Shown: piece after piece, positions 32,785-54,500 of the stretch
How positions within the stretch are numbered: the stretch's first letter is position 1
How the letters are laid out: each line of letters opens with the position of its first letter
NCBI RefSeq assembly: GCF_023734095.1
Contig: NZ_AP024620.1
Location: 554,501 to 618,500 of the forward strand
Reading direction: 5' to 3'
DNA from: Moorella sp. Hama-1
GTDB taxonomy: Bacteria; Bacillota; DSM-521; Neomoorellales; Neomoorellaceae
Length of the DNA: 64,000 bases
The notes under the pieces: generated by a model
Databases searched by the model: none
Told to the model about the DNA's origin: nothing
The model's input: the letters and a program-made list of their open reading frames with translations, nothing else
Position numbers and translations under genes: made by a program

Positions 32785-32930
32785 TTTCGGAGGAGCCCCT
32801 CATGGGGGCAAACTCCACCAGCGAACGGGAGAAATGAGAGGCAAGGCTTTAACCTGAAACTGGCGTAGCCAGTTTCGACGAGCCTCCCACCTCTCACCTC
32901 CAACCTCACACATCTCATTTCGGAGGAGCC
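32785..32930 (+). repeat. Family A repeat, copy 3 (before the S-layer gene)
   Basis: 146 bases flanked by perfect 13-base direct repeats TTTCGGAGGAGCC at 32785-32797 and 32918-32930. The interior is nearly identical to 18896-19038 for its first 80 bases, including the hairpin GAAACTGGC-GTA-GCCAGTTTC. The loop differs (GTA against GCA) while the stem is intact. The right direct repeat directly precedes the ATG. Confidence 0.82.
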
Positions 32931-37449: not shown

Positions 37450-37523
37450 GGAATATTACAACCCTGTATTCCTGGCCGTAATCCTCCTTAACGGCCTGGC
37501 CTATTCCGTAGCCAGGTACCTTT

Positions 37524-37559
37524 GTAGGAGGAAATTTTCCCCTGGTGGCGAATTACTTC
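37524..37559 (+). promoter_or_regulatory. GCAGGA...GGCGAA motif, copy 2
   Basis: GTAGGAGGAAATTTTCCCC followed by TGGTGGCGAATTACTTC resembles the segment at 31975-32009. It lies in the 200-base leader region of the CRISPR regulator gene. Confidence 0.3.
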
Positions 37560-37624
37560 TTTACCACAATGATGCAACTGTGATTTTTAGTATCGGGCTA
37601 CTATAAAAAATGGTAGCTGGGCGA

Positions 37625-37648
37625 CCTGGCTATCCCACAGCCAGGAGG
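37625..37648 (+). promoter_or_regulatory. Hairpin masking the ribosome site of the CARF regulator
   Basis: CCTGGCT (37625-37631) pairs with AGCCAGG (37639-37645), and the second arm runs into the AGGAGG ribosome site at 37643-37648. Folding would hide part of the site. A similar CCTGGC/GCCAGG pair occurs 120 bases upstream (near 37495-37516). Confidence 0.45.
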
Positions 37649-37658
37649 TATGATAAAG

Positions 37659-38564
37659 ATGAACGCGGCAGGAAGAGACAGGCAGAACCCGGAAATCTTG
37701 ATCGCCACCCTGGGGGTGGAACCCCAGGTGGTAACTATCACCCTGGATCGCTTGCTTGCCGGCGGCCGGGCCGTTAGTGAGGTTGCCGTTGTTTATACGG
37801 AGAATCCCGTCGTCCAGAAGGCCATGGACATGGTGGCTGGTGAATTTAGAAGCCGGTTCTACCCCGGCATCCAGCTGCGGCCGGTGCCGGTGACCGCCGG
37901 GCAGGAGAAGATACGGGATTTTTGCAATAATGCCGACCTGCAGGCCCTGTTGCGTACCCTGTACGGCGAGGTGCGCCGTGCCAGGCAACAGGGTTTCATT
38001 GTCCACCTGTGTGTCTCCGGGGGCCGTAAAGTCATGGGCATCATGGCCATGGTCGTGGCTCAACTCCTTTTTGGACCTGAAGATTGCGCCTGGCACCTGG
38101 TCACCGAGGGATGGCAGCCCGGCGACCGGCGCCGCCTGCACCTTCCCGCCGGGGAGAAAGTCTGGCTGGTGCCGGTACCGGTGTTACGCTGGCAGGAAGC
38201 AGGCACGCTGGTGCGGGCTGTGACCGAACTGGATGACCCCGCCGAGGTGGTGGCCTGGTACGAGAAGTTAACTCGCGACGAACGCGCCAAACGCAAGGGC
38301 GAGTTCATCCGCCACTGGCTGACGCCGGCGGAGCGGCAAGTAGTCGAACTCGCCTGTCGCGGGCTGGATAATAAAGCCATCGCCGCCCGGCTTTATAAAA
38401 AGGAGCAAACCGTGGCCAACCAGCTGCGCAGTGTTTATGAAAAACTGCGGGAATGGCTGGGTTACCCGGCAGGCACAATCGAGCGCAGTGTCTTGATTGC
38501 GGAATTCTCTTCTTATTTCCTTAGCGAAACATTTTCGTCGTCAGTTGGTACAAGCAGGGTATGA
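37659..38564 (+). CDS. CARF-domain protein with LuxR-type HTH (Csx14/NE0113-like N-terminus)
   Basis: About 301 residues. The N-terminal half matches the CRISPR-associated NE0113/Csx14 CARF type: ILIATLGVEPQVVTITLDRLL at the start and a HLCVSGGRKVMGIMAM loop, where cyclic oligoadenylate would bind. The C-terminal region (about 216-280) is a LuxR/GerE helix-turn-helix (LTPAERQVVELACRGLDNKAIAARLYKKEQTVANQL). This suggests a cOA-responsive transcription regulator for the locus, parallel to Csa3 but with another HTH class. ATG at 37659 fits the AGGAGG spacing better than ATG 37650. Ring-nuclease activity of the CARF part is possible. Confidence 0.8.
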   Translation: MNAAGRDRQNPEILIATLGVEPQVVTITLDRLLAGGRAVSEVAVVYTENPVVQKAMDMVAGEFRSRFYPGIQLRPVPVTAGQEKIRDFCNNADLQALLRTLYGEVRRARQQGFIVHLCVSGGRKVMGIMAMVVAQLLFGPEDCAWHLVTEGWQPGDRRRLHLPAGEKVWLVPVPVLRWQEAGTLVRAVTELDDPAEVVAWYEKLTRDERAKRKGEFIRHWLTPAERQVVELACRGLDNKAIAARLYKKEQTVANQLRSVYEKLREWLGYPAGTIERSVLIAEFSSYFLSETFSSSVGTSRV

Positions 38565-38570
38565 AGGGAA

Positions 38571-38960
38571 GTGGCAACAAGGGTGAAGATTATTAATTTC
38601 GCCCATCCCCTGACACCGGCCAACTTTGAGGAAATAGCCGGCCGGGTAGGCGACCAGGTAGAAGTAATCAGCGTGCACTTCCAGATCGAACACCAGTATC
38701 CCCTGGAGCCCCAGGTAGAAGACCTGGTGGATGGTCTGGGGTTGACGCCACGGGAGTGGCAGACGGGATCCTTTCTGTTTAATCTGCCGTCTCTTAATTA
38801 CGGCGCCGCGGTGCTGCTGGCCCATCTCCACGGGCGTACCGGTTATTTCCCCGCCATTTTACGCTTGCGCCCGGTGGAGGGTAGCCTGCCGGTACGCTTT
38901 GAAGTGGCGGAAATAATCAACCTGCAGGCCGTGCGCGAGCGGGCACGCAGGATGCGCTAA
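38571..38960 (+). CDS. csx15: CRISPR-associated protein Csx15
   Basis: About 129 residues with the Csx15 hallmark IINFAHPLTPANFEEI at the start and LPSLNYGAAVLLAHLHGRTGYFP in the middle. Csx15 is an accessory of type III systems and belongs to a group proposed to bind or degrade cyclic oligoadenylates; that role is inferred. It lies between the CARF regulator and cmr1. GTG 38571 or GTG 38583 may be the start; the latter gives the shorter family-like N-terminus. Confidence 0.78.
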   Translation: MATRVKIINFAHPLTPANFEEIAGRVGDQVEVISVHFQIEHQYPLEPQVEDLVDGLGLTPREWQTGSFLFNLPSLNYGAAVLLAHLHGRTGYFPAILRLRPVEGSLPVRFEVAEIINLQAVRERARRMR

Positions 38961-38975: not shown

Positions 38976-40007
38976 ATGCCAGATGCAGTCCTTACTTTCG
39001 AAGTTTTAACACCGATGTTCCTGGCCGGTGCCGACATCAGGCAGCCGGAATTAAGGGGGCCGGCAGTGAAAGGTGCCCTGCGCTTCTGGTGGCGGGCAAT
39101 CCACGGATTTGATCCCCAGCTGCAAAAAAATGAGGGGGCGATCTTTGGTTTTACCGGCGAAGGTAGCCGTAAGAGCAGCCTGATCTTAAAAATAGAAGGG
39201 GAGGACGCGGCACCATATATTACCAGGGAACCGTTTCCCAGGCATAATTACCTTCTCTACCCGGTAAAGGGACGCGACTTGAACATCCTAGAATACATAG
39301 CCTACGGTACTTACACCTATGACAAAATAACAAAAAAGAACGTATTTGATCGCAGCTATATCAAACCCGGCTACAGTTTCCGCCTGGTCATCCAGATGCG
39401 GAATAATGATTGTCTCCAGGAAGTAATTATGGCCTTGCAATACTTCTGCTGGTTCGTGGCCCTGGGAGCAAAGTCCCGCAATGGCTTTGGCAGCCTGAAA
39501 GTTAAAGCAATAGAGGGTCACCTGTCCACTGAGGTAAGGCAAAGTTTAACGTCCCTCCCGGGGAAAAACAGCCTGGTTCCCTTCAATAATTGTAAAGAAC
39601 TTCCGGAATTCAGCGCCCTGTCCGGAGGGGCCAGGCTTTTTAAAACCCGCCAGGATTACGGGAACTGGGATGCCTGCCTGGGGGAACTGGGTCACGCCTA
39701 CCGTAAATCCCGCCTCTCCCTGGAACCATCCCATTCCTACCACAAACGCCGGTATATCGGGGCTCCGCTTACTGTTAATAAAATGCCAAAGTCCCGGCTG
39801 GACAGGCACGCCAAGCCCTATTTCCTGCGCGTGCACGAGCGGCAGGGAAGATACACGGGCTACCTGCTGTATCTGCCGTCCCATTATTGTACCGGGCTTG
39901 TCGGAAAGAAGTCGGATATTGATCCGGCCAGGGAAGACGCGGCTTTTACCAGGGCCTGCCAGGAAATGAATCAAGCCCTAGGGCAGAATCTGGAGGTGGT
40001 ATATTGA
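38976..40007 (+). CDS. cmr1: Type III-B Cmr1 (Cas7-like end subunit)
   Basis: A 343-residue RAMP protein. The N-terminus LTFEVLTPMFLAGADIRQPELRGPAVKGALRFWWRA is the Cmr1 signature. Cmr1 sits at the 3' end of the crRNA in the Cmr complex. ATG follows GGAGGGAG. Its stop overlaps the cmr2 start. Confidence 0.93.
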   Translation: MPDAVLTFEVLTPMFLAGADIRQPELRGPAVKGALRFWWRAIHGFDPQLQKNEGAIFGFTGEGSRKSSLILKIEGEDAAPYITREPFPRHNYLLYPVKGRDLNILEYIAYGTYTYDKITKKNVFDRSYIKPGYSFRLVIQMRNNDCLQEVIMALQYFCWFVALGAKSRNGFGSLKVKAIEGHLSTEVRQSLTSLPGKNSLVPFNNCKELPEFSALSGGARLFKTRQDYGNWDACLGELGHAYRKSRLSLEPSHSYHKRRYIGAPLTVNKMPKSRLDRHAKPYFLRVHERQGRYTGYLLYLPSHYCTGLVGKKSDIDPAREDAAFTRACQEMNQALGQNLEVVY

Positions 40008-41785
40008 ACGCGCTGCTTATTTTTACCATGGGGCCGGTCCAGTCCTTTATCGCCCAGGCGCGTAAAACCCAGGACCTGTATGCCGGTAGCTATATCTTAT
40101 CCCACCTTTGCCGTACGGCAGCCCGGCAGGCTCGGGATGCTTACGGTGCCGAGATAATTTACCCCGATATAAATAATCCCTCTCTACCCAATCGCCTGGT
40201 GGCTCTTTTTACTGTAAAAAGCAAGGAAGAACTCCAGGAGATTGGTGCCAACCTGGAAAAAGAGGTAAGGGATGAGTTTATCCAGATGGGGTTGGAGGTG
40301 GTTCAAGCCTTTGCTTTGCCGGTTACCACCGCCCTTGAGGAGCAGTTACGTGATTTCCTGGAGATATACTGGGTGGGGGGCGAATACGAAGCCGACCGGT
40401 ATGCCGACTGCTACCGCCGCCTGGAGTCTTTCCTGGGGGCAATAAAAAATACCCGCCTTTTTACTCCCGGTGGCGAGCAGGGTCGCAAGTGCAGCATTAC
40501 CGGCGAGCATAATGCCCTTTTCTATCGGGGTCAACAGAAGGCATTTCTGCAGCAGGCATTTAAAGTACCTGAAACTGTGGGGAAGAAGTATCTGGCTCCG
40601 GGGGAAGCCTTGAGCGGGATAGGCTTCATGAAACGGGCTGCCGCCAGGTACTTCAACTGCAGGCATAGGGATTTTAACGACGATTTCCCATCCACCGCCG
40701 CAATAGCCCTGGCCGCAAGCCTGCCCTTATTGCCCACCGACAAGGTAGCCCGGTACAAAGAACTTTTTGGTAATGATTTTGCATTCCAATTTTTCTACCC
40801 GGAGAACTTGACCCCGAAGCGTTTTATAGCTGACGGTATTCCCCTGGAAAAATTAGCGCCAGCGGAGGCTTTACTAAAAGAGCTGTACGCTGCGGCCCGG
40901 GAACGCGGGGCCGTATTAAGCAGGTATTACGGTTTAGTAATTATGGATGGCGACAGCATGGGAGAATGGGTGTCCGGGAAGAATTTGGCCACTGCGGGAC
41001 AATTACCGGATTTCCAGCGCTACCTCACCCGGCAACTCGGGGCTTATGCCAGGGAGGTCCAGGCTATCCTGGCTTTACCCCAGCGGGGACGGCTGGTTTA
41101 CTGTGGTGGTGACGACCTCCTGGGCTTTATTAATTTAAACTACCTGCCGGTGGCTTTAAGGGAATTGCGGCAACAATTCCCGCCGTTGGAGCGGTTTACC
41201 GGCGGGGCGGGGGGAAGAGTCTCTTCGACCTCTGCCGGGGTGTGTATTGCCCACTATAAAACTCCCCTCACCGAAGTAATTAATATGGCCCGCAGAATGG
41301 AGGAAAAAGCCAAAGAAATCGACGGCAAGGATGCTCTGGCTATCAGCGTCTTAAAGCACTCGGGTGAAATCTGCCAGAGCGTTTTTAAATGGCAGTATAA
41401 GGGCCTGGATCCCCTGGCGTTACTGAGCCGTTTAATCATTAACCTGGCCAGCGGCGAGTTTTCCGATACCTTTATCCGCAATCTCGCCCGGGAATTCGGG
41501 GTCTTAACAGCCCGGGAAGAAGAGAAAAAGGTAAAGAAAAGCGGGGAGATAGAGAGCAGGGCAACTGAGGAAGAGATGGTGGACGCCGAAATCAGCCGCC
41601 TGTTGCAGCGCTCCTGCCAGCTACTGGACCGGCAGGAGGCAGATGAGAAGATAAAGGGATTGGGAAAGCAGTTATTTACCCTGTATATAGAGATAGAAGC
41701 CGGCCTGGCTAATTTCCTTTCGTTTTTAGATATTGCAGCTTTCCTTTCCCGGGAGGTGCAGGTAAGCAATGAAGCTAAGGATTGA
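40004..41785 (+). CDS. cmr2: Type III-B Cas10/Cmr2, HD-less, with GGDD cyclase motif
   Basis: 593 residues. It opens directly with the Palm-like GPVQSFIAQARKTQDLYAGSYILS motif and has no N-terminal HD nuclease, unlike typical 800-900-residue Cmr2. The zinc-type region is reduced. DGDSMGEW and the cyclase motif VYCGGDDLLGF (about residue 367) are intact, so it should make cyclic oligoadenylate on target RNA binding but not cut DNA. TTG start at 40004 after GGAGGTGG. Overlaps cmr1 and cmr3. Confidence 0.93.
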   Translation: MNALLIFTMGPVQSFIAQARKTQDLYAGSYILSHLCRTAARQARDAYGAEIIYPDINNPSLPNRLVALFTVKSKEELQEIGANLEKEVRDEFIQMGLEVVQAFALPVTTALEEQLRDFLEIYWVGGEYEADRYADCYRRLESFLGAIKNTRLFTPGGEQGRKCSITGEHNALFYRGQQKAFLQQAFKVPETVGKKYLAPGEALSGIGFMKRAAARYFNCRHRDFNDDFPSTAAIALAASLPLLPTDKVARYKELFGNDFAFQFFYPENLTPKRFIADGIPLEKLAPAEALLKELYAAARERGAVLSRYYGLVIMDGDSMGEWVSGKNLATAGQLPDFQRYLTRQLGAYAREVQAILALPQRGRLVYCGGDDLLGFINLNYLPVALRELRQQFPPLERFTGGAGGRVSSTSAGVCIAHYKTPLTEVINMARRMEEKAKEIDGKDALAISVLKHSGEICQSVFKWQYKGLDPLALLSRLIINLASGEFSDTFIRNLAREFGVLTAREEEKKVKKSGEIESRATEEEMVDAEISRLLQRSCQLLDRQEADEKIKGLGKQLFTLYIEIEAGLANFLSFLDIAAFLSREVQVSNEAKD

Positions 41786-42863
41786 TCCTCTGGATACCCT
41801 CTTTTTCCGTGACGGCCGGCCCTTTACCAGGGGTGAGGATGACTGGGCCGCCAGTATCTTCCCGCCTTCCCCCGGGGTTATTTACGGTGCTTTACGCAGC
41901 CTCTATTTCGCCAACCTCCTGGAGGAACTGGAACTAGCCCTGACAGACGCTGACCCCACAGCGGCTCTGCGCATAAAAGCCCTCTACTGGCAGATAGGAG
42001 CAGAAGATGAAGGCGAACCTTGTTTTCCCCTGCCCCTGGACTGTGTGCGGTTGAAAAACAACAGGCGGGAACCCGGAGGTTTTCACCTGTTAACGATAAG
42101 TACTTTAGCCGGGCTGGCTACCAATTACCCTTTGGACTTTGTATTAAAGAGTGAAGAAGAAGTAGCAGGCCCGGGGAACCACCTCCTGGACCGGGAGAGC
42201 CTGGTAGATTACCTGGAGGGTAAAAAGGAGATCTTTTTTGCCCATGATCTGGCTGACCATTTGTACTGGGAGCCAAAGGTGGGTATTGGCCGGGACGCTA
42301 TTACCCATGCCGCCGCCGAGCATCTCCTGTACCGGGTGCAGATGTTGCGGCTTAAAGATATGAGCCTGATTGTCGAATATGAGGGCCTGCAGCTACCGGA
42401 ACAGGGTTTCCTGCGCCTGGGGGGTGAAGGCCGGGCGGCTAGTTTTACCCATGTTGCCGGAGAGATGGAGGGGTTGCCCGCTCCTGCCACGGGCAGGTAT
42501 TTCAAGCTTTACCTGGCTACACCGGCTTTCTTTAATGGTGGGTGGCGGCCGGGGTGGCTGGATCATCGCGGCGAAGGAACTTACGGTCCTCTAAAATTGA
42601 AACTGCTAACCGCAGCCGTAGGCAAACCTGTTCCTTCAGGCGGTTTTGATATAAAAATAAGGCAACCTAAACCCATGCGCCGGGCCGTGCCGGGGGGTAG
42701 CGTTTACTATTTTGCCATCCTGCAGGGTACGATAGCTGACGCTGTCGCGGCCTTCCACGGCCGCTGCATCAGCGAGTACCGGCAGCAGGAGGGCTTTGGC
42801 CTGGCCTTTACCGGTTGCCTTGATCCAGAAAACCTGAGCATTATCACCGGGGAGGGGAACTGA
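41769..42863 (+). CDS. cmr3: Type III-B Cmr3 (Cas5-like)
   Basis: A 364-residue RAMP protein with the Cmr3 N-terminus IDPLDTLFFRDGRPFTRGEDDWAASIFPPSPGVIYGALRS. It holds the 5' handle of crRNA beside Cmr2. The C-terminal QEGFGLAFTG matches the family. It overlaps cmr2 by 17 bases. Confidence 0.93.
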   Translation: MKLRIDPLDTLFFRDGRPFTRGEDDWAASIFPPSPGVIYGALRSLYFANLLEELELALTDADPTAALRIKALYWQIGAEDEGEPCFPLPLDCVRLKNNRREPGGFHLLTISTLAGLATNYPLDFVLKSEEEVAGPGNHLLDRESLVDYLEGKKEIFFAHDLADHLYWEPKVGIGRDAITHAAAEHLLYRVQMLRLKDMSLIVEYEGLQLPEQGFLRLGGEGRAASFTHVAGEMEGLPAPATGRYFKLYLATPAFFNGGWRPGWLDHRGEGTYGPLKLKLLTAAVGKPVPSGGFDIKIRQPKPMRRAVPGGSVYYFAILQGTIADAVAAFHGRCISEYRQQEGFGLAFTGCLDPENLSIITGEGN

Positions 42864-42864: not shown

Positions 42865-44055
42865 GTGCTGGTTATTACTACTGTGGGGACTTCCCTGCTG
42901 GAGAATTACCGGCAAGAACACCATGGCCTTGATGCCGATTACTTCAAACTGAAGGAGGAACCGGCATCAAACTGGGATAATAACGAGCGCCGTATAAACA
43001 AAGTTAAAAAGGCCCTGCTGAACTGGGCACAGCCTCAAGGGGAAACCAGCGCCGAGATTAAAAGCCTCTTTAACCTCCGCCGGCAGGCCGGCCAGGCGAT
43101 AGAGGCCCGGCTGCTGGCCACGGATACGGTCCTCTCTCGCCTTACGGCCGAAGTCCTGGAAGAGGTCCTGGCCGGAACAATAAAGACCGTTTTTGAGCCG
43201 GACAGAGATGTTATCAAAGGCCTGCAGGTATGGGATCGAAAACGTTTTGAAAAGGAGGGCCTGATAAACCTCATAGCCCGGATTGAAGAACTGAACGGCA
43301 CCTGTGAAGAAGTAGCCATCAATTTTACCGGCGGTTATAAAGCGCTGATACCCTATCTTACCATCATGGGCCAGCTCTACAATATCTCCCTGTATTACAT
43401 CTTCGAGGATACCGACGAGCTGATCCGGCTACCACAGGCGCCCCTGGCGATTAACTGTGGTATTTTTGAAAAGTACAGCCATATCATTGCGGACCTGGCT
43501 GCCGGTATCGATGATTGGAGCCGGCATCGTTGGAGATATACCATCGAAGATGAATTTCGCGCCTGCATCTGGGAGGACGGCGACTTTGCGGAACTGAACG
43601 CCATCGGTCGCCTCTACTGGTATAGATATCAAAACTACTTCCTGGTAGAAGTATTAAAAGAAGCCGATTATTTCCGGGAGAATAGCGGCAATAAACAGGA
43701 AGTCAATTCCGCTTTACAGGAGTTATACGGCCGGCTTAATAGCAGGATTATCGGTAACGGGTTGAAGAATACGGAGGATCTGCAGGCCTATCTCAACTCC
43801 CTGCCCGATAAGGATGACCTGCGCCATGGGGAAAAACCGGACCGGGATAAATATATCTTTAAGTCAACCAATAAAAGCCAGATAAGGCTGGTTTACACAC
43901 CGATTATTAAACCTTATGGCCTGAGCCTGCGCCTTTTTGATCATGTGCGTGGTAATTTCGATCATACGGTGTACATTAAGGAATTTAAAGAGAAGATGAA
44001 AATGCATGCCAACCAGGAATATACAGCCATTACACTAAAGAAACCGCAGTCATAA
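42865..44055 (+). CDS. CARF-domain protein inside the cmr operon, candidate cOA-activated effector
   Basis: 396 residues. The N-terminal half is a CARF domain of the APE2256/TIGR02619 type (VITTVGTSLLENYRQEH; EVAINFTGGYKALIPYLTIMGQLY). The middle is helical and may include a winged helix. The last 70 residues are strand-rich (KYIFKST, IRLVYTPII, LSLRLFDHVRGNFDHTVYIKEF), compatible with a RelE-like mRNA interferase as in Cami1. An R-x4-H pattern (RGNFDH) is also present, which in an alpha-helical HEPN would be catalytic. I cannot decide between these. Placement between cmr3 and cmr4 ties it to Cmr2 signalling. Confidence 0.7.
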   Translation: MLVITTVGTSLLENYRQEHHGLDADYFKLKEEPASNWDNNERRINKVKKALLNWAQPQGETSAEIKSLFNLRRQAGQAIEARLLATDTVLSRLTAEVLEEVLAGTIKTVFEPDRDVIKGLQVWDRKRFEKEGLINLIARIEELNGTCEEVAINFTGGYKALIPYLTIMGQLYNISLYYIFEDTDELIRLPQAPLAINCGIFEKYSHIIADLAAGIDDWSRHRWRYTIEDEFRACIWEDGDFAELNAIGRLYWYRYQNYFLVEVLKEADYFRENSGNKQEVNSALQELYGRLNSRIIGNGLKNTEDLQAYLNSLPDKDDLRHGEKPDRDKYIFKSTNKSQIRLVYTPIIKPYGLSLRLFDHVRGNFDHTVYIKEFKEKMKMHANQEYTAITLKKPQS

Positions 44056-44076: not shown

Positions 44077-45030
44077 ATGTTTAAGCAGGCACGTCCCTTT
44101 TTTCTTATGGTTGAGACGCCCCTTCACGCCGGTTGCGGCAGTGACCTGGGGGTGGTCGACCTGCCCATCCAGCGGGAAAAACACACCGGCATACCGAAGG
44201 TGGAAGCCTCGGGCCTGAAGGGTTGTATCAGGGAAGCCTTCGAGGATTATGATGTAGTGCCGGGCAACCGCCTCCCGGAACCCCTGGTGCAGGAATTCCC
44301 CGGACTGCGGGAAAAGGGGAAGCTACGGGAGGCTATTAATCTGGCCTTTGGGCCTGAAGACGGGGATCTGCACGCCGGCGCCCTGGGCTTTACCGACGCC
44401 AGGCTCCTCCTTTTCCCGGTACGTTCCATGCGCGGCGTATTCGGCTGGGTGACCTGTCCGGCAATTATCTCCAAGTTTATTCGGGAATTAAAGATGGCCG
44501 GTCTGGAGCCCCCACTGCAGGTCCCACCGGCCGGTGCGATACCCAGGGGTTGCGGCTTATTGGTAAATAACGGGCATGTGATTCTCGAAGAATACACCTT
44601 TGCCCTCCAGGAGGACGCCGCCTGTACCAACTTAGCCGCCTGGCTGGCCCGTAAACTCTTTCCCGCCTCGGGCTACGAATACTGGCGGGAGAAAATGCAA
44701 AAGGACCTGGTGGTCCTGGCCGATGACGATTGCCGCGATTTTGTCAACCTAGCCACCGAGGTCATCACCAGGACCAGAATCGACGCGCAAACAGGTACGG
44801 TAGCCAGGGGCGCCCTGTTTACCGAAGAGTACTTACCCCAGGAGAGCGTCCTTTATGCCCTGGCCCTGGCCGCACCGGTGTTTCATAGCAGCAAAGGTAT
44901 TTTCGCTGCTGGGGAAGAAAGGGCCGTCCTCACCTTCTGGCAGAAGGGTCTACCCGAATTCCTGCAGCTGGGTGGTAACGCCACCATTGGTAAAGGCATT
45001 GTCAGGTTAAAGGTCCTGGAGGAGGGTTAA
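44077..45030 (+). CDS. cmr4: Type III-B Cmr4 (Cas7 backbone RNase)
   Basis: 317 residues. The family N-terminus is HAGCGSDLGVVDLPIQREKHTGIPKV; D28 corresponds to the catalytic Asp (D26 of Pyrococcus furiosus Cmr4) that cuts target RNA every six bases. Multiple copies form the Cmr filament. It follows the CARF gene by 21 bases with an AGGAGG site. Confidence 0.94.
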   Translation: MFKQARPFFLMVETPLHAGCGSDLGVVDLPIQREKHTGIPKVEASGLKGCIREAFEDYDVVPGNRLPEPLVQEFPGLREKGKLREAINLAFGPEDGDLHAGALGFTDARLLLFPVRSMRGVFGWVTCPAIISKFIRELKMAGLEPPLQVPPAGAIPRGCGLLVNNGHVILEEYTFALQEDAACTNLAAWLARKLFPASGYEYWREKMQKDLVVLADDDCRDFVNLATEVITRTRIDAQTGTVARGALFTEEYLPQESVLYALALAAPVFHSSKGIFAAGEERAVLTFWQKGLPEFLQLGGNATIGKGIVRLKVLEEG

Positions 45031-45031
45031 A

Positions 45032-45427
45032 ATGGCACTCAACGGTTTAGAACAGGGCCGCGCCCGCTACGCCTATGACTGTGCCCGGCAGGGGAAAGAT
45101 CTGCCGGCCAGCAAAGAATACAAATCCTATGTCAAAAAGATACCCGCCCTGATCAAGATGAACGGCCTCGGGGCGACCCTGGCCTTTATTGCCGCCAAAA
45201 AGAAAGATGACCCCCGCAAAAAGGAGTATGCCTATAAAGTCATTTATGACCAGTTAAAGCCATGGCTGGTAGAGAAGGGTCTGGTGGAACGCCACCAGGA
45301 TTTGGTCGCAGCTGTGGTCGCCCTCGATTCCCTGTCTTACCGGATGGTGACCGGGGAAGTGCTGGCCCTCTTTAAGTGGATCAGCCGCTTCGCCGAGGGC
45401 CTGATTGAAGGTGAGGCCGATGAGTGA
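45032..45427 (+). CDS. cmr5: Type III-B small subunit Cmr5
   Basis: 131 residues, mostly helical and basic (QGRARYAYDCARQ, KKIPALIKMNGLGATLAFIAAKK), the Cmr5/Cas11 fold that lines the target path. Starts one base after the cmr4 stop and overlaps cmr6. Confidence 0.93.
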   Translation: MALNGLEQGRARYAYDCARQGKDLPASKEYKSYVKKIPALIKMNGLGATLAFIAAKKKDDPRKKEYAYKVIYDQLKPWLVEKGLVERHQDLVAAVVALDSLSYRMVTGEVLALFKWISRFAEGLIEGEADE

Positions 45428-46589
45428 AAGGGGCAAACTTGTTGTCCAGCAGACCAAAGGCGGCGGGTATGCGGGTACAATCAGGCTAAGTAATAACAAA
45501 AGCATGCCCCTGCCATCGTATTACGATTTACGCGATGCCAGCCTCAATGGAGTTGAGTGTGAGGTGGAAAGGGAAAAAGGGTTAATAAAGCGGGTCCTGG
45601 TAGCCGGGCAAGATTTACAGCGCCGGCCAGGGAAGGGGTCGCAGGAGGGTTATAAGGACCGCCAGCCCCAGCACCGGCAGCAGGAAACCGCCGGTCGTCC
45701 CCCGGTAAAGGATAACGGTCCTCATCAAGATAAGGCACGGGAGGAAAACAGGTTAAAGACTTTTTTACCCCGCGATACGCATCAGTATCTCCCCGCTAAG
45801 GTTGATAACTTTGGTCTTCTCCTGAATAAAGTCGCCTGGTTTGATGAAGGGGAAGATAATAAAGGCCAGGGCAAGGGATTTAAGTTTTATCTCGCCGGCA
45901 GAAACCCCAGGACCCTGGTGAAAGGCGATTTTGCCGGGATCGATTTTACCGTTCTGGACAGGCGGCGGGAGCGAGCCCTCCAGGGTACGGGCCTTCTCCT
46001 GGAAAAATTGCCCATGACCCCACAGTGGCGCTTTGTCGTTGGCCTGGGCCAGGAATCAGTATATGAAACCTCCCTGACCCTGCACCCTGTCTATGGTTTT
46101 CCCTTTATACCAGGGAACGCCATCAAAGGCCTGGTGCGTAATACCATCATCAGCGAGGTCTTCGCCGGTGATGAAAAGGAGGCCCTGGCCGATACCGGCT
46201 TCCGAGCGATATTTGGCTGGACCAATTATGGTACACCGTCCAGCCAAAGAGGTCTGGTCCACTTTTTTGATGCCTACCCGGCCACAGCACCCCATATAGT
46301 ACCGGATATTATCAACCCCCACTATGCCCCCTATTACCAGGACGCTAGCGGTCGCACGCCGCCGGGTGATTATTATAACCCGGTGCCGGTTTTTTTCCTG
46401 ACGGTGGAAAGGACGGAGATGCTCTTTTACCTGGGTATCAACCCGGCGGCCAATCAGGTTATCACGGCCGGGGAGCTGGCCGGACAAGATTATTTGAGCA
46501 CAACCGGCAAGTGGCTGCGTTTGGCCCTGGGTGAATACGGTATCGGTGCCAAAACGGCAGTGGGGTACGGATGCTTTGCCAGTTTATGA
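45420..46589 (+). CDS. cmr6: Type III-B Cmr6 with N-terminal OB-like extension
   Basis: 389 residues, longer than usual. Residues 120-389 are Cmr6 (TGLLLEKLPMTP...HPVYGFPFIPGNAIKGLVRN, GIGAKTAVGYG). Residues 1-65 form an extra small beta-rich module (GKLVVQQTKGGGYAGTIRL, VECEVEREKGLIKRVLVAGQ) that looks like an OB or cold-shock-like fold, joined by a Gln/Arg/Pro-rich linker. The ATG at 45420 overlaps the cmr5 stop and follows AGGTGAGG. The extension may give extra RNA contact. Confidence 0.9.
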   Translation: MSERGKLVVQQTKGGGYAGTIRLSNNKSMPLPSYYDLRDASLNGVECEVEREKGLIKRVLVAGQDLQRRPGKGSQEGYKDRQPQHRQQETAGRPPVKDNGPHQDKAREENRLKTFLPRDTHQYLPAKVDNFGLLLNKVAWFDEGEDNKGQGKGFKFYLAGRNPRTLVKGDFAGIDFTVLDRRRERALQGTGLLLEKLPMTPQWRFVVGLGQESVYETSLTLHPVYGFPFIPGNAIKGLVRNTIISEVFAGDEKEALADTGFRAIFGWTNYGTPSSQRGLVHFFDAYPATAPHIVPDIINPHYAPYYQDASGRTPPGDYYNPVPVFFLTVERTEMLFYLGINPAANQVITAGELAGQDYLSTTGKWLRLALGEYGIGAKTAVGYGCFASL

Positions 46590-46776
46590 GGGAATCAGAG
46601 TATCCTCGTATTCATATGCCGGGCAGCCCGCCCCATTACCACTTGGATTTTACTAAAAATATACCCAAACATACGTACCCGACAGTATTTGGCGGTGGGG
46701 GGGATTAAAATGGGGACAGGGCTCGGCGCTATTCGGAAATAGGAAGGCTAATTTAAGACGGAAAGGGGGCTGACGT

Positions 46777-49515
46777 ATGAATGTTGCTTGGTTAAAAAGC
46801 AAGTTGGCCGACCGCGAACTGGAGGATTATAACCGCTATATCCTGCCGTCCCTGGCACCCTGGCAGGACAGGGAACAGTCTGGCAGCCGCGCCGGCAGTA
46901 CCGTAGCGGAACACCTGGCCGGCGGGGCGTTACTACTGTTTACCTTAAGGAAAATACTGGGATTAAATGAGGTGGAGGTAAGGCTGGTGGTTGCGGCTTT
47001 TACCCTCCATGACCTCAACAAGCTGGCCACGAAACCAGCGCCCCTGGGGCAACTGGCCAATGACCGCCCCTGGGTGGAAGAAATGATTGTCACCCTGGGC
47101 ATAGACAGCTTTTTCCCGGCCTGGCGGGACTACTACGGCGACCTGATTTCTTTAATTCGCAGCCATTCAGGGCACCAGAATCTATACGGCTATGACCTGA
47201 TCCCGGCCGCTGGAAAAACGCGCCTGGATTCTCAACGTATCCGCGAACTCACCTATCTCATCAGGGCGGTGGACCTCATCGATCTGTCGCACCATTTCGA
47301 TGAAAGGAAGAAAAAGCAGCAATTCCTCAGCCTGCTCAATAGCTTTGCTACGACCCAGTTGCGCTGGATCAGCCATAAACTCGCTGAACACCGGGGCGTA
47401 TTATCCAACATCATCCATAACCAGGTTATCCAGATGCTGCAAGAACAGGGCGCCCGGCCTCTATTGGTGTACCCGGAAGGCGTCTGGTATCTGCTGCCCG
47501 TTAGTACTACTTTACCGCCCCTGCCGGAGATTATGACCGGGGTGGCAGTCCGGGTGCAGCAGCGCCTGGAGGGTTTCAAGATCGAGGACCTGGACAAGGT
47601 AATCCAGACAACTAAAGACGGTATCAAAGTTAACGGCAGCGTAGTTGGCCAGATACCGGCAGCTTTAGCCCTGACCAAAGTGGAGGAACTCGCTTATAAA
47701 CGTAAACCCAAATTTGCCGATCATTACAATAAATTACGCGATCGCCTGATCAGGGAAGGAGTTAATCTCGACAATTATTTGTCTGAGAAAGGTCTGCGCA
47801 TGTTTCAAACCCAGGAGGATCTTGTTACGGGAGAACTGATCCGGGCTACTTATAACTTCCTGAATACTCACTGTCAGGATGTTAAAGACCCGTGGCAGGT
47901 CCTTTATGCCCGGTTAAACATCGACGCGGAGACTTATGCGCCCTTTAATGCCCTGTATGATCGGCCGTTTATAATTGCCGCCAACCTGCCCTGTGACAGC
48001 CAGACCCTCAAAGGTGAGCTAAACCGGATCTGGGAGGAGCAGTGGCCCACCCGGGGCAACGATAATACTACTGACCCGGTCCCTGCCTTTGTCCAGCATT
48101 ACCTTCAGGATACTCTGGTGGTAGACATCGGCAGAGAAGATTCCTTTAGCCCGGCACGAATGCAGGATTATTTAACCGCCTATATCAAAGGCCGCCACCA
48201 GCAGGACTGTTCCGGCGCATTCGCCGGTACTACCGAGAAGATGTTATCACCCCAGGTGCCCGAAGGTATGCAGGTACAGCAGTTTTCCAACCGCCTGCCG
48301 GGAGGAGCATCCATAGAACCTAAACGTTATATATCCGCAATCGCCAGGGAGCAATTCTTTATCGAGCGGATAGTTTTCCGCTCCGGCGGGGAAAAGGCTG
48401 TGTACCTGCATTTCATGCCACGCCAGTTCATCCCCTGGGTGCAGCTTGGCTTATTAAAACAGGAGTTGGAAGAACTCCTCGGGGATCAAGATGCCCTGCT
48501 GGGTATTGATGACGCCGCCTTCAAGGAAAGCCAGAGGAAGCTGTTCCGGGAAAGCTTCCGGGCCAATAAGGGCAAGGGCCTTTCCCTGCCCCGGTTTGCC
48601 GAAACGGTGGCCGGTATTATTACCATGCCGGTATACCTGGATGCGGAAACGGCAGGGGAACGCTCCCTGCAGGCTCTGGAGTACGGCGCTCGCCTGGCCC
48701 TGGCGTTTAACCTGAAGGTCTTGATCAGCGAGGCCGTAATACCCCCCTTAACGGCGGCTGATTTTGATTTCCTCTATATCGACAGTATTCCCTGGCAGCT
48801 GGCAGCTTTCTTCCGCACCAGGACCCTTTCCCGGGATGAGGCGCAGGAGTTTTTAACCCTGATCGACGCCCTGCGCCGTGTCGATATGGCTTTGCGCAAA
48901 GATATTCGCGATAGCCTGCTGCTGGAGCTGGTCCTGGAAAGCCTCAGCGGGCCCCTGGGCCTGTTCACGGCCGTCGACCGGGCCCTGGAGCGGAAAGCGC
49001 GGGTGGCGAAACCGAGTGCCCCGGACAGCATCTGGGTGCTGGGTAGCGTTGTCCGGGAGATTGAAACAGTCCTGGCTATTTTAGAAAGGAGGTTACCTAT
49101 GGCTGCAGTATCAAACTACCTTAAGGAAATGGCTGTCCTGGCCTGGCAGGGCGGGCTACGAGGTAAAAGCCTGGAGAGAAACTCCCTGCTTTTCCCTTTG
49201 AACACGATCTTCGATTACCTGCGCCGCGATGTCGCTGCCTTTGACCGGGAAGCCCAGCAGGCCGTGCTGGCGGAGTACATCTTCGACTACCTGGAACGGA
49301 TCAGGGAGCACGTCGGGCAACGCCAGGCAGACAACGCCACCGCCTTTGTGGCCCTTTTTTACCGCCTGCTGGACGATATTTTTCAGGGTAAGGTCAACCG
49401 CGCACTGGATATGGAGAAAGACCTCAAGGCCGCCTTTCTCTATTACGTGCGCAGCCAAATCAAGCAGGCCGTGGATAAAAAACAGAATCAAGGACAGGAG
49501 GTTGCAGCCCAGTGA
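46777..49515 (+). CDS. cas10d: Type I-D Cas10d (Csc3) with HD nuclease domain
   Basis: 912 residues, the large subunit of the type I-D effector. The N-terminal HD domain is visible (AEHLAGGALLLFTLRK..., FTLHDLNKLATKP, then RSHSGHQN). No GGDD motif is present, as expected for Cas10d, so it is a nuclease subunit rather than a cyclase. A 187-base gap separates it from cmr6, marking the border of the two modules. ATG follows GAAAGGGGG. It overlaps csc2 by four bases. Confidence 0.92.
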   Translation: MNVAWLKSKLADRELEDYNRYILPSLAPWQDREQSGSRAGSTVAEHLAGGALLLFTLRKILGLNEVEVRLVVAAFTLHDLNKLATKPAPLGQLANDRPWVEEMIVTLGIDSFFPAWRDYYGDLISLIRSHSGHQNLYGYDLIPAAGKTRLDSQRIRELTYLIRAVDLIDLSHHFDERKKKQQFLSLLNSFATTQLRWISHKLAEHRGVLSNIIHNQVIQMLQEQGARPLLVYPEGVWYLLPVSTTLPPLPEIMTGVAVRVQQRLEGFKIEDLDKVIQTTKDGIKVNGSVVGQIPAALALTKVEELAYKRKPKFADHYNKLRDRLIREGVNLDNYLSEKGLRMFQTQEDLVTGELIRATYNFLNTHCQDVKDPWQVLYARLNIDAETYAPFNALYDRPFIIAANLPCDSQTLKGELNRIWEEQWPTRGNDNTTDPVPAFVQHYLQDTLVVDIGREDSFSPARMQDYLTAYIKGRHQQDCSGAFAGTTEKMLSPQVPEGMQVQQFSNRLPGGASIEPKRYISAIAREQFFIERIVFRSGGEKAVYLHFMPRQFIPWVQLGLLKQELEELLGDQDALLGIDDAAFKESQRKLFRESFRANKGKGLSLPRFAETVAGIITMPVYLDAETAGERSLQALEYGARLALAFNLKVLISEAVIPPLTAADFDFLYIDSIPWQLAAFFRTRTLSRDEAQEFLTLIDALRRVDMALRKDIRDSLLLELVLESLSGPLGLFTAVDRALERKARVAKPSAPDSIWVLGSVVREIETVLAILERRLPMAAVSNYLKEMAVLAWQGGLRGKSLERNSLLFPLNTIFDYLRRDVAAFDREAQQAVLAEYIFDYLERIREHVGQRQADNATAFVALFYRLLDDIFQGKVNRALDMEKDLKAAFLYYVRSQIKQAVDKKQNQGQEVAAQ

Positions 49516-50501
49516 AAAGCCTGGCAGCTTATCAAGATTTCTTACTAAAGGAGTACAGCAATTTACCCACCGGTCGCTACGTCAACCTGGTTATTATCCG
49601 CGAAACCGAGTCAGAGTGTATCTTTCGTACCGAGGGTAGCGGCGAGCCATTGAACCGGGAACTGGTCCAGGCCGGCGTTAAAAGCACCGCTGCCATCCAG
49701 CGGGTGGTTATTTCCAAACGCAAGCAGACGGCGGTGGAAAGGCGAACTGGCCGGGAAATGCTACGCAGTTACGGCCTGCTCAATGTCGCGGGGAGCGAAT
49801 GTATGCTCAATACCAACGCCCCCTGCGAGCGTTGCGTGGACTGCTGGCTCTATGGCTATGCCGTCGGCGGCGGTGGTGCCCAGAAATCGCGGGTAATTAC
49901 TGAAGATGCCTTTTCGCTGCTTCCGGCGGGACAGATTGTTGCTACTAAAACCTTTAACGCCCTGTTTGACAACAATACCATGCGCCACCCGGTGACGAGA
50001 GAAGCCTCGACCAGCATCAATTCCAGTGAGTATGTTAAACCCCAGGTGCATTTTGTTGATATTGAAACCCTGAAGGATGTCACTGCCGCGGAAATGGTTT
50101 ATGTCACCGCCAATATCCTGAACTCACGGCGTTATGGCGCCATTTCCTCGAAAATAGGGCGGGTCAAAAATTACCTAGTGGCCATAGTTTTTAGCCGTTC
50201 CGAGATCTTCAGCACCCTGGAAATGGTCCAGCAGCTTTATGATTTATTATGCGATGATAACGCCGAACTGGAGCATCCCCTGCCAACCGCCCGCGTACTG
50301 GACCGGGCCCTCAAAGCCGTGGATGCCCTGCTGCCGCAGGTTTACGGCGCTAAAAAAGTAATGGCCGGGAAAGAACTGGCTGCCTACCTTGAGGAAGTGG
50401 CCACCCTCCTGGAAGAACCCCAATCCTTCCTGGAGTCTTTAACCCGGTCTTACCCGCAACCGGTCAAAGATAAAGGCAAGCAGAAAAATGATAACAAGTA
50501 G
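49512..50501 (+). CDS. csc2: Type I-D Csc2 (Cas7d backbone)
   Basis: 329 residues with Csc2 features: MLRSYGLLNVAGSECMLNTNAPCERCVDCWLYGYAVG (zinc-type cysteines) and RYGAISSKIGRVKNYLVAIVFS. It forms the crRNA-binding filament of the I-D Cascade. GTG start overlapping cas10d. The C-terminus is lysine-rich. Confidence 0.93.
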   Translation: MKSLAAYQDFLLKEYSNLPTGRYVNLVIIRETESECIFRTEGSGEPLNRELVQAGVKSTAAIQRVVISKRKQTAVERRTGREMLRSYGLLNVAGSECMLNTNAPCERCVDCWLYGYAVGGGGAQKSRVITEDAFSLLPAGQIVATKTFNALFDNNTMRHPVTREASTSINSSEYVKPQVHFVDIETLKDVTAAEMVYVTANILNSRRYGAISSKIGRVKNYLVAIVFSRSEIFSTLEMVQQLYDLLCDDNAELEHPLPTARVLDRALKAVDALLPQVYGAKKVMAGKELAAYLEEVATLLEEPQSFLESLTRSYPQPVKDKGKQKNDNK

Positions 50502-51251
50502 GTGATAGGGTTGCTGGTCTATGAGCTGGAAATAATCCTGCAGGAACGAGTCTTTTTCGCCAGCCGCGAGATTGACAAGTTTTTTTTAACCGAACCGGTA
50601 ATCGGCAATTACGCCCTGGCCTATGCCTTTAACCTGGTGACGGCTCCTTACCGGGTTGAAGATGTCAAAAACGAGAAGCCAGCTTATCCAGCCGATCTGA
50701 CCAGTCTAAACCGGCGGGGGATTTACCTTACCCCCGCCACCCCCCGGCAGAAACCCGTTCTGGTGGTGGAAAGGTTCAATGCCTTGACCGACAGCTACTG
50801 GTACCAGATGAGTAATAACGTGGTGGTCGGCGATCTTGCCTACAAGCTGGATAAAGAGCGGAAGCGCCGGCCCGCCAATTTCCCCCAGGAGGGGCACTTG
50901 CGCCTCCTGGCCCGGGGAACCCGCCTGGGCCTGTTCCTCTGTTGCCGGGAAGAAATAATCATACCGTCTTATATTCGCCTGGGCAAGTTTAACAGCAAGG
51001 CCAGAGTTAAAGTAGTCCAGCATTGGGAGGACCCGCCCCGGATGTATCGCGAGGATGCATCTATTGACTACTATCTCAACCCCCTGGATCTGCCGGCCGG
51101 TTCCCGAGTAAAGCTTTTCGATTTAATGAGTGTACCACCGGTACCGTTGATAAAAAATGTTATCCTCAGCGGTGCATTCTATCAACTGGCTAAAGAAAAA
51201 TATCTGCCCGTGGATATGGCCTTCGGGGGGCTGGCAGCATGCGCGCCTTAA
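50502..51251 (+). CDS. csc1: Type I-D Csc1 (Cas5d-like)
   Basis: About 249 residues; the N-terminus VYELEIILQERVFFASREIDKFFLTEPVIGNYALAYA and the RGIYLTPATPRQKPVL strand match Csc1. It caps the 5' end of the crRNA. GTG 50502 directly abuts the csc2 stop; TTG 50511 has better spacing from AGGTGATAGG. Overlaps cas3 by 13 bases. Confidence 0.9.
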   Translation: MIGLLVYELEIILQERVFFASREIDKFFLTEPVIGNYALAYAFNLVTAPYRVEDVKNEKPAYPADLTSLNRRGIYLTPATPRQKPVLVVERFNALTDSYWYQMSNNVVVGDLAYKLDKERKRRPANFPQEGHLRLLARGTRLGLFLCCREEIIIPSYIRLGKFNSKARVKVVQHWEDPPRMYREDASIDYYLNPLDLPAGSRVKLFDLMSVPPVPLIKNVILSGAFYQLAKEKYLPVDMAFGGLAACAP

Positions 51252-53572
51252 CCGTAGAGCTACAGCCCCATTATGAAAGGGTTGCCGCGGATAACCCTTT
51301 TCCGGAAAAACTGCCCCTTTTGCTACAACACCAGTGGGAAACCTGGGACGCTGTCCGGGATAACCATCTGGTATTCAATACGTATCCGACTGGTACCGGC
51401 AAAACCATAGCTGCCTTGCTGGGGATCCTTCATTTTCGCGCTCACAACGTCCTTATTATTGCGCCCACCAATGCCCTGGTGGGGCAACACGAGCGCGACG
51501 TCTGCGATTTTGTCAGGCGCTTCCAGTTGCCCCACCTGGTAAAGGAAATTAATGCCGACATCCTGAGGAATTTGGAGGTGCCTGGCACCCGGCGCAAAGG
51601 GGAAAAGCTGCACCAGTTAATCCGCAACCCGGCGGTAATTGACGATCAGGTAAACGAACGCAGCCCCCTGATGCTGGTGACCAATCCCGACCTTTTTTAT
51701 TACGCCCTGTTTTATTTATTTAATAAGCAGGACCAGCGCAACCTGGCCCGGGGCATCCTGCAGGAATTCGATTATATCATCGTTGACGAGCTCCATTACT
51801 ATAACGCCAAACAGCTGGCCAACTTCCTCTATTTTATCGTCATCTCCCATCACTTTGGCTATTTTACCAGCCAGAACCGCCGCATGGTTATCCTGACGGC
51901 CACCCCGGACTCCTTCCTCCAGACTTATATTGAGAGGCTGGAATACTTGGGACTTAAGTGCCGGATGATCAGACCAGAGGCCAAACCGGGTGGCTCTCTG
52001 GCCGCAGACAATGGGAAGGAAATCCAGAGTACGGCCCGGTTAACCCTGCATTTATTACCCCTGGAAAAGAAGGCGGACTATCATGGTCACGTTGAGGAGC
52101 ATCTGCCCTACCTGGAAAGTGCCCTGGGGCAAGGGCAAGATGGCGTTATTATTACCAGTAGCTTAAGGCAAATAAACCAGCTAGCTATGTTTTTACAGCG
52201 CACCCCATTGGCCGGGCATTTTGCCCGGATTACCGGCCCCGTGCCGGCGATGGAGCGGGCAAAGGCCGCCTTTTACCCGCTGGTGCTGGCCACCGCTACC
52301 GTCGATATCGGTTACAATTTTCAGGGTCACCCCAAAGAACGACAGAATATCGATTTCGGCATCCTGGAGTGCAGTACCCTGGATGCCTTCTGGCAACGCC
52401 TGGGTCGCATCGGGCGCGTGCTGGGGAAACCGGTCCGGAATTATCCCTCCGAGGCCTTCGTTTATATTCCCGCCGAGGCCTGGAACCTGCTGTCCGGGAC
52501 GCTGGTAGAGACGACTTATACCCGCCCGGAGTTGCAAAACTTGATGCAGGAAACCCTAGCACCGCAAAGATTGATGGCCCGCCTTTTCCATGGGGAGTAT
52601 ATATCCTATTTCTCCCTTATGGAAGTAATGCTGCCCTTGCAGCATATCCACCGGCTGCTGCCTGACGATATGAAAGAATGGGCGCAAAAAGGCTTTGAAT
52701 TGCTTAAAGAAATATATAGCCCGCGCAGCCGGCGCAATTTCTGGCATTTGTTTAATGAACTAAAGCAGTATGATGAAATCCGTGGTTTACTCAACCTCAT
52801 GCAAAAGAATCCAACCCGCATGGAACGCCGGTCTCTATTTAAGGTTTTGAAGGAACGTTATGGTAGCGACGACATTAATCTGGATGGGGTCTATCAACTC
52901 TGGCAGGACGGCGACGCCGACCTGCGGCAGGACCTGGAGTTTTATTTGCATAATAAAATCAGCCCTTATGCCGGGATGTTTAGTTTTCGCGGCCATACCG
53001 GGGATAAAAAGGTGGCAGCTTATGATCCTGAAGGGTTATTGAGTGAAAGCCGGGGCTGGGTGATAGTCGATCCCTGGCACCTGATAAAGAACTTTACTTT
53101 TGAAGTATATACCCGGCAGGAAATTAAGCTGTTCAAGGATCTGACACCCCCGGAGGCAGATATTTACGTGCTTATAAAAAACATGTATGAGCAACCATTA
53201 CGATTAAAGTTAACCTATCAGCTCCCTTCTCACCTCGAAATTGAAGAACTCGACAGCCGCAGCGGGTGGTTTGTGTCTTTGCGGGGGTTAAAAGTGGAAG
53301 CAGCCTATCAGGGGGCCGTTGTACCCCTGCGGCGACAGCTGCAGGATATACTGCAGGACAGTTTCGTCAGCGGTGTTCTGCTGCAACGGGATTTCAACCC
53401 GGCCATAATCAACCGCTGTTTTCGTGAGGAGATTTATCCCCTGGAGTTAACAGCCAGCAAAGATGGCAGCAGCAAACAGTATTTTTTCTTTCCCGGCCAG
53501 GCCGGTTATGACTTCTGGGCGCGTTACGGTTGGAGCTTACGCAAAGAAGAGCATACGTGGATTATTGTCTAA
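51239..53572 (+). CDS. cas3: Type I-D Cas3 helicase (Cas3')
   Basis: A 777-residue superfamily 2 helicase. Walker A TYPTGTGKT (about residue 47), DExH box VDELHYY, motif III LTATP, motif VI WQRLGRIGR. There is no HD domain, which is on Cas10d in type I-D. It unwinds target DNA after Cascade binding. Starts inside csc1 with ATG at 51239. Confidence 0.93.
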   Translation: MRALTVELQPHYERVAADNPFPEKLPLLLQHQWETWDAVRDNHLVFNTYPTGTGKTIAALLGILHFRAHNVLIIAPTNALVGQHERDVCDFVRRFQLPHLVKEINADILRNLEVPGTRRKGEKLHQLIRNPAVIDDQVNERSPLMLVTNPDLFYYALFYLFNKQDQRNLARGILQEFDYIIVDELHYYNAKQLANFLYFIVISHHFGYFTSQNRRMVILTATPDSFLQTYIERLEYLGLKCRMIRPEAKPGGSLAADNGKEIQSTARLTLHLLPLEKKADYHGHVEEHLPYLESALGQGQDGVIITSSLRQINQLAMFLQRTPLAGHFARITGPVPAMERAKAAFYPLVLATATVDIGYNFQGHPKERQNIDFGILECSTLDAFWQRLGRIGRVLGKPVRNYPSEAFVYIPAEAWNLLSGTLVETTYTRPELQNLMQETLAPQRLMARLFHGEYISYFSLMEVMLPLQHIHRLLPDDMKEWAQKGFELLKEIYSPRSRRNFWHLFNELKQYDEIRGLLNLMQKNPTRMERRSLFKVLKERYGSDDINLDGVYQLWQDGDADLRQDLEFYLHNKISPYAGMFSFRGHTGDKKVAAYDPEGLLSESRGWVIVDPWHLIKNFTFEVYTRQEIKLFKDLTPPEADIYVLIKNMYEQPLRLKLTYQLPSHLEIEELDSRSGWFVSLRGLKVEAAYQGAVVPLRRQLQDILQDSFVSGVLLQRDFNPAIINRCFREEIYPLELTASKDGSSKQYFFFPGQAGYDFWARYGWSLRKEEHTWIIV

Positions 53573-53585
53573 AGGGGTAGCAACG

Positions 53586-54437
53586 ATGCTCTATAGCCTG
53601 GTTATCTATTTTTCGCCCCGGGAAGACCTGCAACCGCGCCACGACCTGGGCGCCAGCCTGCATGCCTTTTTATATAACCTTATTCGATCCGGGGACGGGA
53701 CATACGCTGCTGAATTGCATCAACAAGGGGGCATTAAACCCTTTACTGTTTCCCCGGTGGAGGTAGTTCAAAGGGAATATATGAGCGCGCTTGTTCCTGG
53801 TGGGAAGGCAGCGACATTCCCGCGCGGCAGCCTCTGCCGGGTTCGTTTCACTTTGCTGCAAGCCAGGCCTTTTTTTCCCCTGGCCGAGTATTTTTTGCAT
53901 CACAGCCGGCCCCTTTCCGAACCCCATCTCAACGGCATACCCCTGGAGATACTGGAAGTCAAGGTGGCCCGGACACCGGAAGAGCCGGGTGCCGGTTATA
54001 GTGAATACCGCCAGTTGTGGGAACAGGCTGCCGCAGCCAGGAGGATAACCCTGGAATTTTCTTCTCCTACCACCTTCCGTCAGGGGGACGTTAATCTACC
54101 CCTTCCCGTACCCAGGCTGATATTTGCCGGCCTGGCTGCCAAATGGCGCCATTTCGCTCCTGATTACCCCATCCACCAGGGCCTGGACGAGTATGTGGAT
54201 AAATACGTCGCCCCGGCCGAATTTAATATTAAATCCGCGCTCCTGGATTACGGGCGCAACCGTAAATATGTCGGCTTTAAAGGCCGATGTAGCTTTATTG
54301 TTTCCGGGAGCGACGAACATAAGGAACTGGCCAAACAGGTTAGCATGCTTGCTGATTATGCCTTTTATGCCGGCATCGGCCAGAAGACGACCATGGGTAT
54401 GGGCCAGGCCCGGCGCCTGCAAATTAGCGGGAGTTGA
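53586..54437 (+). CDS. cas6: CRISPR repeat endoribonuclease Cas6
   Basis: A 283-residue RAMP with the C-terminal glycine-rich loop YAGIGQKTTMGMGQARRL. It cleaves the repeat hairpin to give crRNAs with an 8-base AUUGAAAC handle. As the only cas6 in the window it probably serves both modules. ATG at 53586 after AAAGGGGTAG. Confidence 0.9.
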   Translation: MLYSLVIYFSPREDLQPRHDLGASLHAFLYNLIRSGDGTYAAELHQQGGIKPFTVSPVEVVQREYMSALVPGGKAATFPRGSLCRVRFTLLQARPFFPLAEYFLHHSRPLSEPHLNGIPLEILEVKVARTPEEPGAGYSEYRQLWEQAAAARRITLEFSSPTTFRQGDVNLPLPVPRLIFAGLAAKWRHFAPDYPIHQGLDEYVDKYVAPAEFNIKSALLDYGRNRKYVGFKGRCSFIVSGSDEHKELAKQVSMLADYAFYAGIGQKTTMGMGQARRLQISGS

Positions 54438-54500
54438 TTGCGGTGGTAGGGGCAACGCGGTGAACCTTATCCACCCTTAGAATATCCAGGAGTGATTGCC

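Follow-up and report, generated by a model that had tools for sequence, protein, structure and literature searches.

The CARF-LuxR gene that heads a type III-B CRISPR operon in Moorella sp. Hama-1 encodes a CARF domain fused to a LuxR/NarL-type helix-turn-helix (HTH). We find that this fusion is conserved among relatives and is accompanied by an operator-like element, TRGTA-N6-TACYA-N8-RGTA, which is associated both with the gene and with CRISPR promoters, a −35/−10 pair following it in fixed geometry. We are fairly confident that the protein is a dimeric transcription factor of the NarL/LuxR type, responsive to cyclic oligoadenylate (cOA; most likely cA4), that would raise transcription of CRISPR operons through this element. 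Within the window, the whole stretch of 64,000 nucleotides that we analyzed, the gene and its domains are placed as follows.

37659–38564, plus strand: CARF-LuxR gene (open reading frame 37650–38564; first in-frame ATG at 37650, start at 37659 preferred)
37689–38183, plus strand: CARF domain, residues 14–178 of the open reading frame from 37650; closest to Sso2081
38313–38459, plus strand: LuxR/GerE/NarL-type HTH, residues 222–270; recognition helix QTVANQLRSVYEKL

The gene is present in one copy in the genome (a single contig of 3.32 Mb). Its start is most likely at 37659 rather than 37650, because an SD sequence, AGGAGG, sits ahead of this codon at 37643–37648 and the differences from a Moorella relative (L020) from 37659 on fall mostly at third codon positions (six third, two first and one second). 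The encoded protein matches Pfam Cas_NE0113 (PF09623) over residues 24–208 with E=2e-53 (181.6 bits against a cut-off of 23) and Pfam GerE/LuxR over residues 224–267 (30.2 bits, cut-off 23.5), as well as NCBIfam Csx14 (TIGR03642; 94.9 bits, cut-off 90.35), and the PADLOC profile CARF3--CARF spans nearly all of it (E=3e-123). The first-pass annotation had described a CARF and LuxR-type fusion at the head of a type III-B operon, and this description holds, with both domains above curated cut-offs and both present in 26 of 26 aligned relatives.

In the structure that AlphaFold predicts from 26 relatives (mean pLDDT 84), the strands end by residue 176 and the C terminus is entirely helical (residues 226–236, 241–248, 252–269 and 279–291), with wing strands absent. 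A family profile search matches the output domains of VpsT, GerE, NarL, ComA, VraR, DevR and RcsB, and also the cA4 ring nuclease Sso2081. The helical model lacking wing strands and the LuxR-type profile matches together rule out a winged HTH like that of Csa3, and the Csa3 profile TIGR01884 finds no match in the CARF-LuxR protein.

Downstream of the gene, profile matches define a type III-B operon in the order CARF-LuxR-csx15-cmr1-cmr2/cas10-cmr3-CARF-RelE-cmr4-cmr5-cmr6, followed after 187 bp by a type I-D module that includes a long array.

38571–38960, plus strand: csx15 (NF040560, 149 bits), of a cA4 sponge/slow ring nuclease family (function: PMC13148439)
38976–40007, plus strand: cmr1 (TIGR01894)
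40004–41785, plus strand: cmr2/cas10, with a GGDD cyclase motif and without an HD domain
41769–42863, plus strand: cmr3 (profile matches)
42865–44055, plus strand: CARF-RelE effector, Cami1-like (PADLOC CARF7--CARF_RelE, E=9e-114)
44077–46589, plus strand: cmr4, cmr5 and cmr6 (profile matches)
46777–56422, plus strand: type I-D module (csc3, csc2, csc1, cas3, cas6) with cas4-cas1-cas2; operator absent in front

Because the Cas10 protein retains GGDD and lacks the HD domain, DNA cleavage by it appears unlikely, and signaling would be its expected output. We detected no terminator in the 187-bp gap between the III-B operon and the I-D module, and the latter could be reached by the regulation only through read-through across this gap.

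The CARF half superposes on Sso2081 structures with cA4-related ligands (VIA Z 19.4, rmsd 1.9 over 148 residues). From the CARF fold, the active-looking Cas10 and the cA4-type neighbors, we infer that the CARF-LuxR protein binds cOA. The most likely signal is cA4, since the operon holds both a Cami1-like gene and csx15; Cami1 is activated by cA4 (PMC11229360) and Csx15 binds cA4 as a sponge or slow ring nuclease (PMC13148439). By its CARF domain the protein belongs to NE0113/Csx14 (CARF3; PF09623, TIGR03642), and like Crn1/Sso2081 it combines a CARF fold with the motif II GRK (PMC10018336). It differs from Crn1/Sso2081 in length (~300 versus 180 residues), in its added C-terminal HTH and in motif I, where phmmer and family alignments show GTS changed to GVE. 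The Crn1 motif pair is Gly-Thr-Ser with Gly-Arg-Lys; here the motif I serine is replaced by Glu24, which is invariant at the Ser11 position in 26 of 26 relatives, and the Thr10 position is usually Val. In Crn1, Ser11 contacts the scissile phosphate, and in Sso2081 the Ser11Ala change severely reduces activity, Ser11 being needed for full activity (PMC10018336). The sequence therefore reads more like that of a sensor lacking efficient ring-nuclease activity; the protein is probably a sensor and not a ring nuclease. The invariant Glu could also weaken or alter cOA binding.

That the protein is instead mainly a ring nuclease of the Csx14/Crn1 kind, with an HTH serving structure or dimerization, we regard as highly improbable. 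Such a role would fit the Csx14 and Crn1 profile matches and the best structural match, Sso2081; however, the score against the Crn1 ring nuclease equivalog NF040581 is below the cut-off (24.8 versus 125 bits), and the loss of the motif I serine and threonine speaks against it. So does the recognition helix, which is the best-conserved part of the C-terminal half in the family alignment, as does the way the family tracks a DNA element. Moreover, almost every type III-linked locus of the family already has Csx15 to scavenge cA4. Later work grouped Csx14 with Crn1 ring nucleases under a 250-aa length limit (PMC12409355), which excludes the 300-aa CARF-LuxR proteins with their lost motif I serine. 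Our results suggest a regulatory role for the long Csx14 proteins that have been labeled ring nucleases.

The DNA element lies upstream of the gene.

37588–37615, plus strand: operator-like element TAGTATCGGGCTACTATAAAAAATGGTA, TRGTA-N6-TACYA-N8-RGTA, from a spacing test and genome survey

Upstream regions of relatives that no longer align have RGTA-N6-TACY-N9-RGTA in common. Among the 39 loci whose upstream sequence reaches 60 bp or more, the exact spacing (6,9) precedes the gene in 24, against an average of 0.09 loci for 109 other spacings. The first 27 non-redundant sites sharpen the motif to TRGTA-N6-TACYA-N8-RGTA, and the 27-nt core has a chance expectation of 0.04 in the window. In a sample of 398 genomes, 24 carry the gene and 19 of these have the element; of the 374 that lack the gene, 41 have it (Fisher 4e-13). 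Those 41 amount to background, as a reversed control pattern occurs in 77 genomes (counted from the survey table). The element is absent from the most divergent family members (L049 and L050), which counts against the activator model. The transcription-factor role proposed in the first-pass annotation gains support here, in that the family appears to have its own conserved operator-like sequence that tracks the gene.

In its layout the TACY-N9-RGTA dyad is similar to TACC-N8-GGTA, the arrangement of the engineered NarL site TACCCCTAAAGGGGTA (PMC4549865), an independent fit with a NarL-type output domain. From the phylogenetic footprint and the regulon association we infer that the CARF-LuxR protein binds the element. 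The element could instead be bound by another regulator, or act as RNA structure in the 5′ leader, with CARF-LuxR merely co-occurring. TACY-N9-RGTA could indeed pair as a short hairpin, and in the window the element would be transcribed from a sigma-H-like promoter. Against this, the element precedes many different genes at 70–254 nt with the promoter downstream, so that it would be mostly untranscribed; it tracks presence of the gene, and it carries a NarL-type half-site and dyad. We consider this alternative very unlikely, and the hairpin version in particular is disfavored by a promoter that mostly lies downstream of the element.

Two further matches, one inside csc3 in the window (49094, minus strand) and one elsewhere in the genome, are at chance level, and both are without the conserved A after TACY. 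In a matrix scan of 46400–46800 and the array leader no site was found, and the only strong site is 37588–37615. We therefore predict from the sequence that a gel shift would be positive for 37450–37650 and negative for 46590–46776. A near-identical element, TAGTACTTTCGTACTAAAAAAATTAGTA, occurs at L122 (G100), where it is found twice near a VanZ-like gene, and also in G239 and G371, in a genus without the fusion; it is possibly the site of another LuxR-type regulator.

Three promoter features surround the element in the window.

37529–37553, plus strand: sigma-H-like promoter AGGAAAT...GCGAAT (AGGAAATTTTCCCCTGGTGGCGAAT), kept in 5 of 27 loci, all Moorella-type (shuffles 0.05)
37626–37631, plus strand: −35-like box CTGGCT, at a conserved distance from the operator
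37649–37654, plus strand: −10-like box TATGAT, 17 bp after the −35-like box and overlapping the region before the start codon

Across the family, TANNNT occurs 60/61 nt after the site start at 16 of 27 sites, with two at most at any other offset (p ~1e-17 under a simple model), and at 12 of 14 sites far from a start codon. A weak, TTG-like −35 sits 17 bp before the TANNNT box, and the element ends ~10 bp upstream of this −35. The fixed −35/−10 pair downstream of the element suggests activation, and control is accordingly more plausibly activation than repression. The opposite arrangement, in which the apo-protein sits on the element and represses its own operon and other CRISPR units until cOA releases it, seems to us unlikely. 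NarL activates or represses according to site position (PMC4549865). Autoregulation at an operon head is common for repressors, and the element in the window has the sigma-H-like promoter on its 5′ side and the SD on its 3′ side, a position at which binding would block read-through. In the far-type sites, however, the element lies ~45–75 bp upstream of the predicted transcription start, as expected of an activator, and the −35 is weak.

For this genome the sign of control is less certain than for the far-type loci. In the window, as at similar loci, only 4 nt separate the −10-like box from the ATG and a good SD precedes the box, so the operator-linked promoter would yield a near-leaderless mRNA; an mRNA from the sigma-H-like promoter can be predicted to include the SD. 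Transcription may begin at either start, ~37560 for the sigma-H-like promoter or ~37660 for the operator-linked one; from the former it would cross the element, where binding could then repress. Through the sigma-H-like promoter, CRISPR expression would come under stationary-phase or sporulation control.

In genomes with the gene, CRISPR units lie downstream of 23 of the 25 element copies, and the other two copies precede murE and yqeH. Besides the gene's own operon, these units are cas4-cas1-cas2 (G144 and G173), I-B cas8b-cas7 (G060, G173, G256 and G285), csx15 (G047 and G124) and a III-B operon elsewhere, as in G124, where a full III-B operon on a contig other than the gene's is led by the element. 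Element-led operons far from the gene comprise III-B on another contig (L118 and L143) and I-B (L111–L113, L116, L144 and L145); further genomes have I-B on one contig and csx15-cas6-cmr on another (G404) or I-B (G413 and G414). Sampled copies in gene-less genomes precede unrelated genes (VanZ-like, creatininase, fumarase and MATE). The first-pass idea that the regulator links CRISPR modules is borne out in relatives, where the element joins type III, I-B and adaptation genes, and not in this genome, whose only convincing site is before the III-B operon, with none before I-D or the adaptation genes.

The activator model would operate as follows. On detecting foreign RNA, the III-B Cas10 would make cA4, which would be bound by the CARF half of a CARF-LuxR dimer. 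The LuxR-type half would then engage TRGTA-N6-TACYA-N8-RGTA just upstream of the weak −35 and raise transcription. In this genome its own csx15-III-B-CARF-RelE operon would be amplified, and in relatives the protein would also control I-B effector operons, cas4-cas1-cas2 and csx15. Csx15, encoded in the same operon as a cA4 sponge or slow ring nuclease, would supply negative feedback. Whether CARF-LuxR is more broadly a bacterial master regulator, one cA4-activated protein with a single operator coupling type III RNA sensing to type III, separate I-B operons, acquisition genes and Csx15, we judge to be evenly balanced.

cOA signaling is known mostly for turning on nucleases and other toxic effectors, and archaeal Csa3 is the main characterized cOA-responsive transcription factor. 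In the literature that we searched, the scope of which excluded the 2020 CARF classification of Makarova (reportedly the paper defining CARF3), we found no report of the LuxR/NarL output, the operator, the promoter geometry or the multi-module regulon. A 2014 prediction by Makarova et al., that effector-less NE0113 proteins are direct transcription regulators (PMC4012209), comes close to both the fusion and the regulator role. Csa3 of the Sulfolobales likewise joins a CARF sensor to a DNA-binding domain beside CRISPR genes; it regulates adaptation, type I and Cmr genes and binds cA4, with ring-nuclease activity not reported (PMC8844856, PMC8699464, PMC7480081). Whereas Csa3 has a winged HTH and a Csa3-type CARF, CARF-LuxR is bacterial, with a LuxR/NarL-type HTH and an NE0113/Crn1-like CARF; unlike Csa3, it heads csx15-bearing type III operons and has a different predicted operator and a sigma-dependent promoter. 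With NarL/FixJ response regulators it shares the output domain and the TACY half-site inverted repeat, spaced N9 rather than the N8 of NarL (PMC4549865), but a CARF sensor replaces the phosphorylated receiver and a third half-site is present at fixed spacing. RtcR is also a transcription activator with a CARF-type sensor, but it is a sigma-54 AAA+ activator of RNA repair, not CRISPR, and the LuxR domain is absent (PMC7790460). That CARF-LuxR is a variant of the CARF-HTH regulator is well supported. The family, from thermophilic Clostridia-like bacteria and from MAGs that are assigned elsewhere among the phyla, comes with a predicted regulon and with a predicted operator that is defined and can be mutated. 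This makes it directly testable how type I, type III and adaptation are coordinated during infection, and whether DNA-targeting CRISPR is primed by type III sensing.

One scan of 84,980 species genomes returned 31 loci, mostly from Moorella, Desulfofundulus, Pelotomaculum and other Bacillota, with single MAGs labeled Armatimonadetes and Acetothermia/Bipolaricaulota. In a phylum sample of 398 evenly drawn genomes, PF09623 occurs in 26, of which 24 carry the CARF-LuxR family. csx15 is close by in 23 of the 31 loci, usually as the next gene, and most loci continue into operons that are III-B or otherwise contain Cas10, with Csx7/Csm3-like RAMPs, representing more than one type III subtype. In the exceptions the gene heads I-B or I-G genes, with L043, L044, L048 and L049 beside type I-B genes and L047 beside Cas3g. 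Some fusion-headed type III operons (L022, L036 and similar) have many Csx7/Csm3-like RAMPs and a divergent Cas10, and the profiles used gave no clear III-A, III-B or III-D assignment for them.

Where family members sit in type I contexts and no Cas10 is detectable, the gene is often broken, a link that is suggestive (Fisher p ~0.025, from a hand count of related genomes) and in line with the activator model; intact genes without a clear Cas10, which speak against it, occur in G047, G014 and G410. In a close Moorella relative (L007 1495–1920, G008), the gene is truncated after GGRKV and a Cas6-like gene comes next, with the operator kept in front; this is a remnant from when the type III operon was lost.

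The fusion was found away from CRISPR loci in a mild form only, as a unit in one genus that is itself preceded by the operator. This unit (L041 4916–9497, G047 contig 29 and G124 contig 17) comprises csx15, a PAS-GGDEF diguanylate cyclase and CARF-LuxR, and in L041 a further GGDEF gene follows; a link from cOA to c-di-GMP signaling is possible. Elsewhere in the window, long intergenic direct repeats that are 82–92% identical (2920–3173 and 17541–17794; 18900–19030 and 32790–32920) precede several genes.
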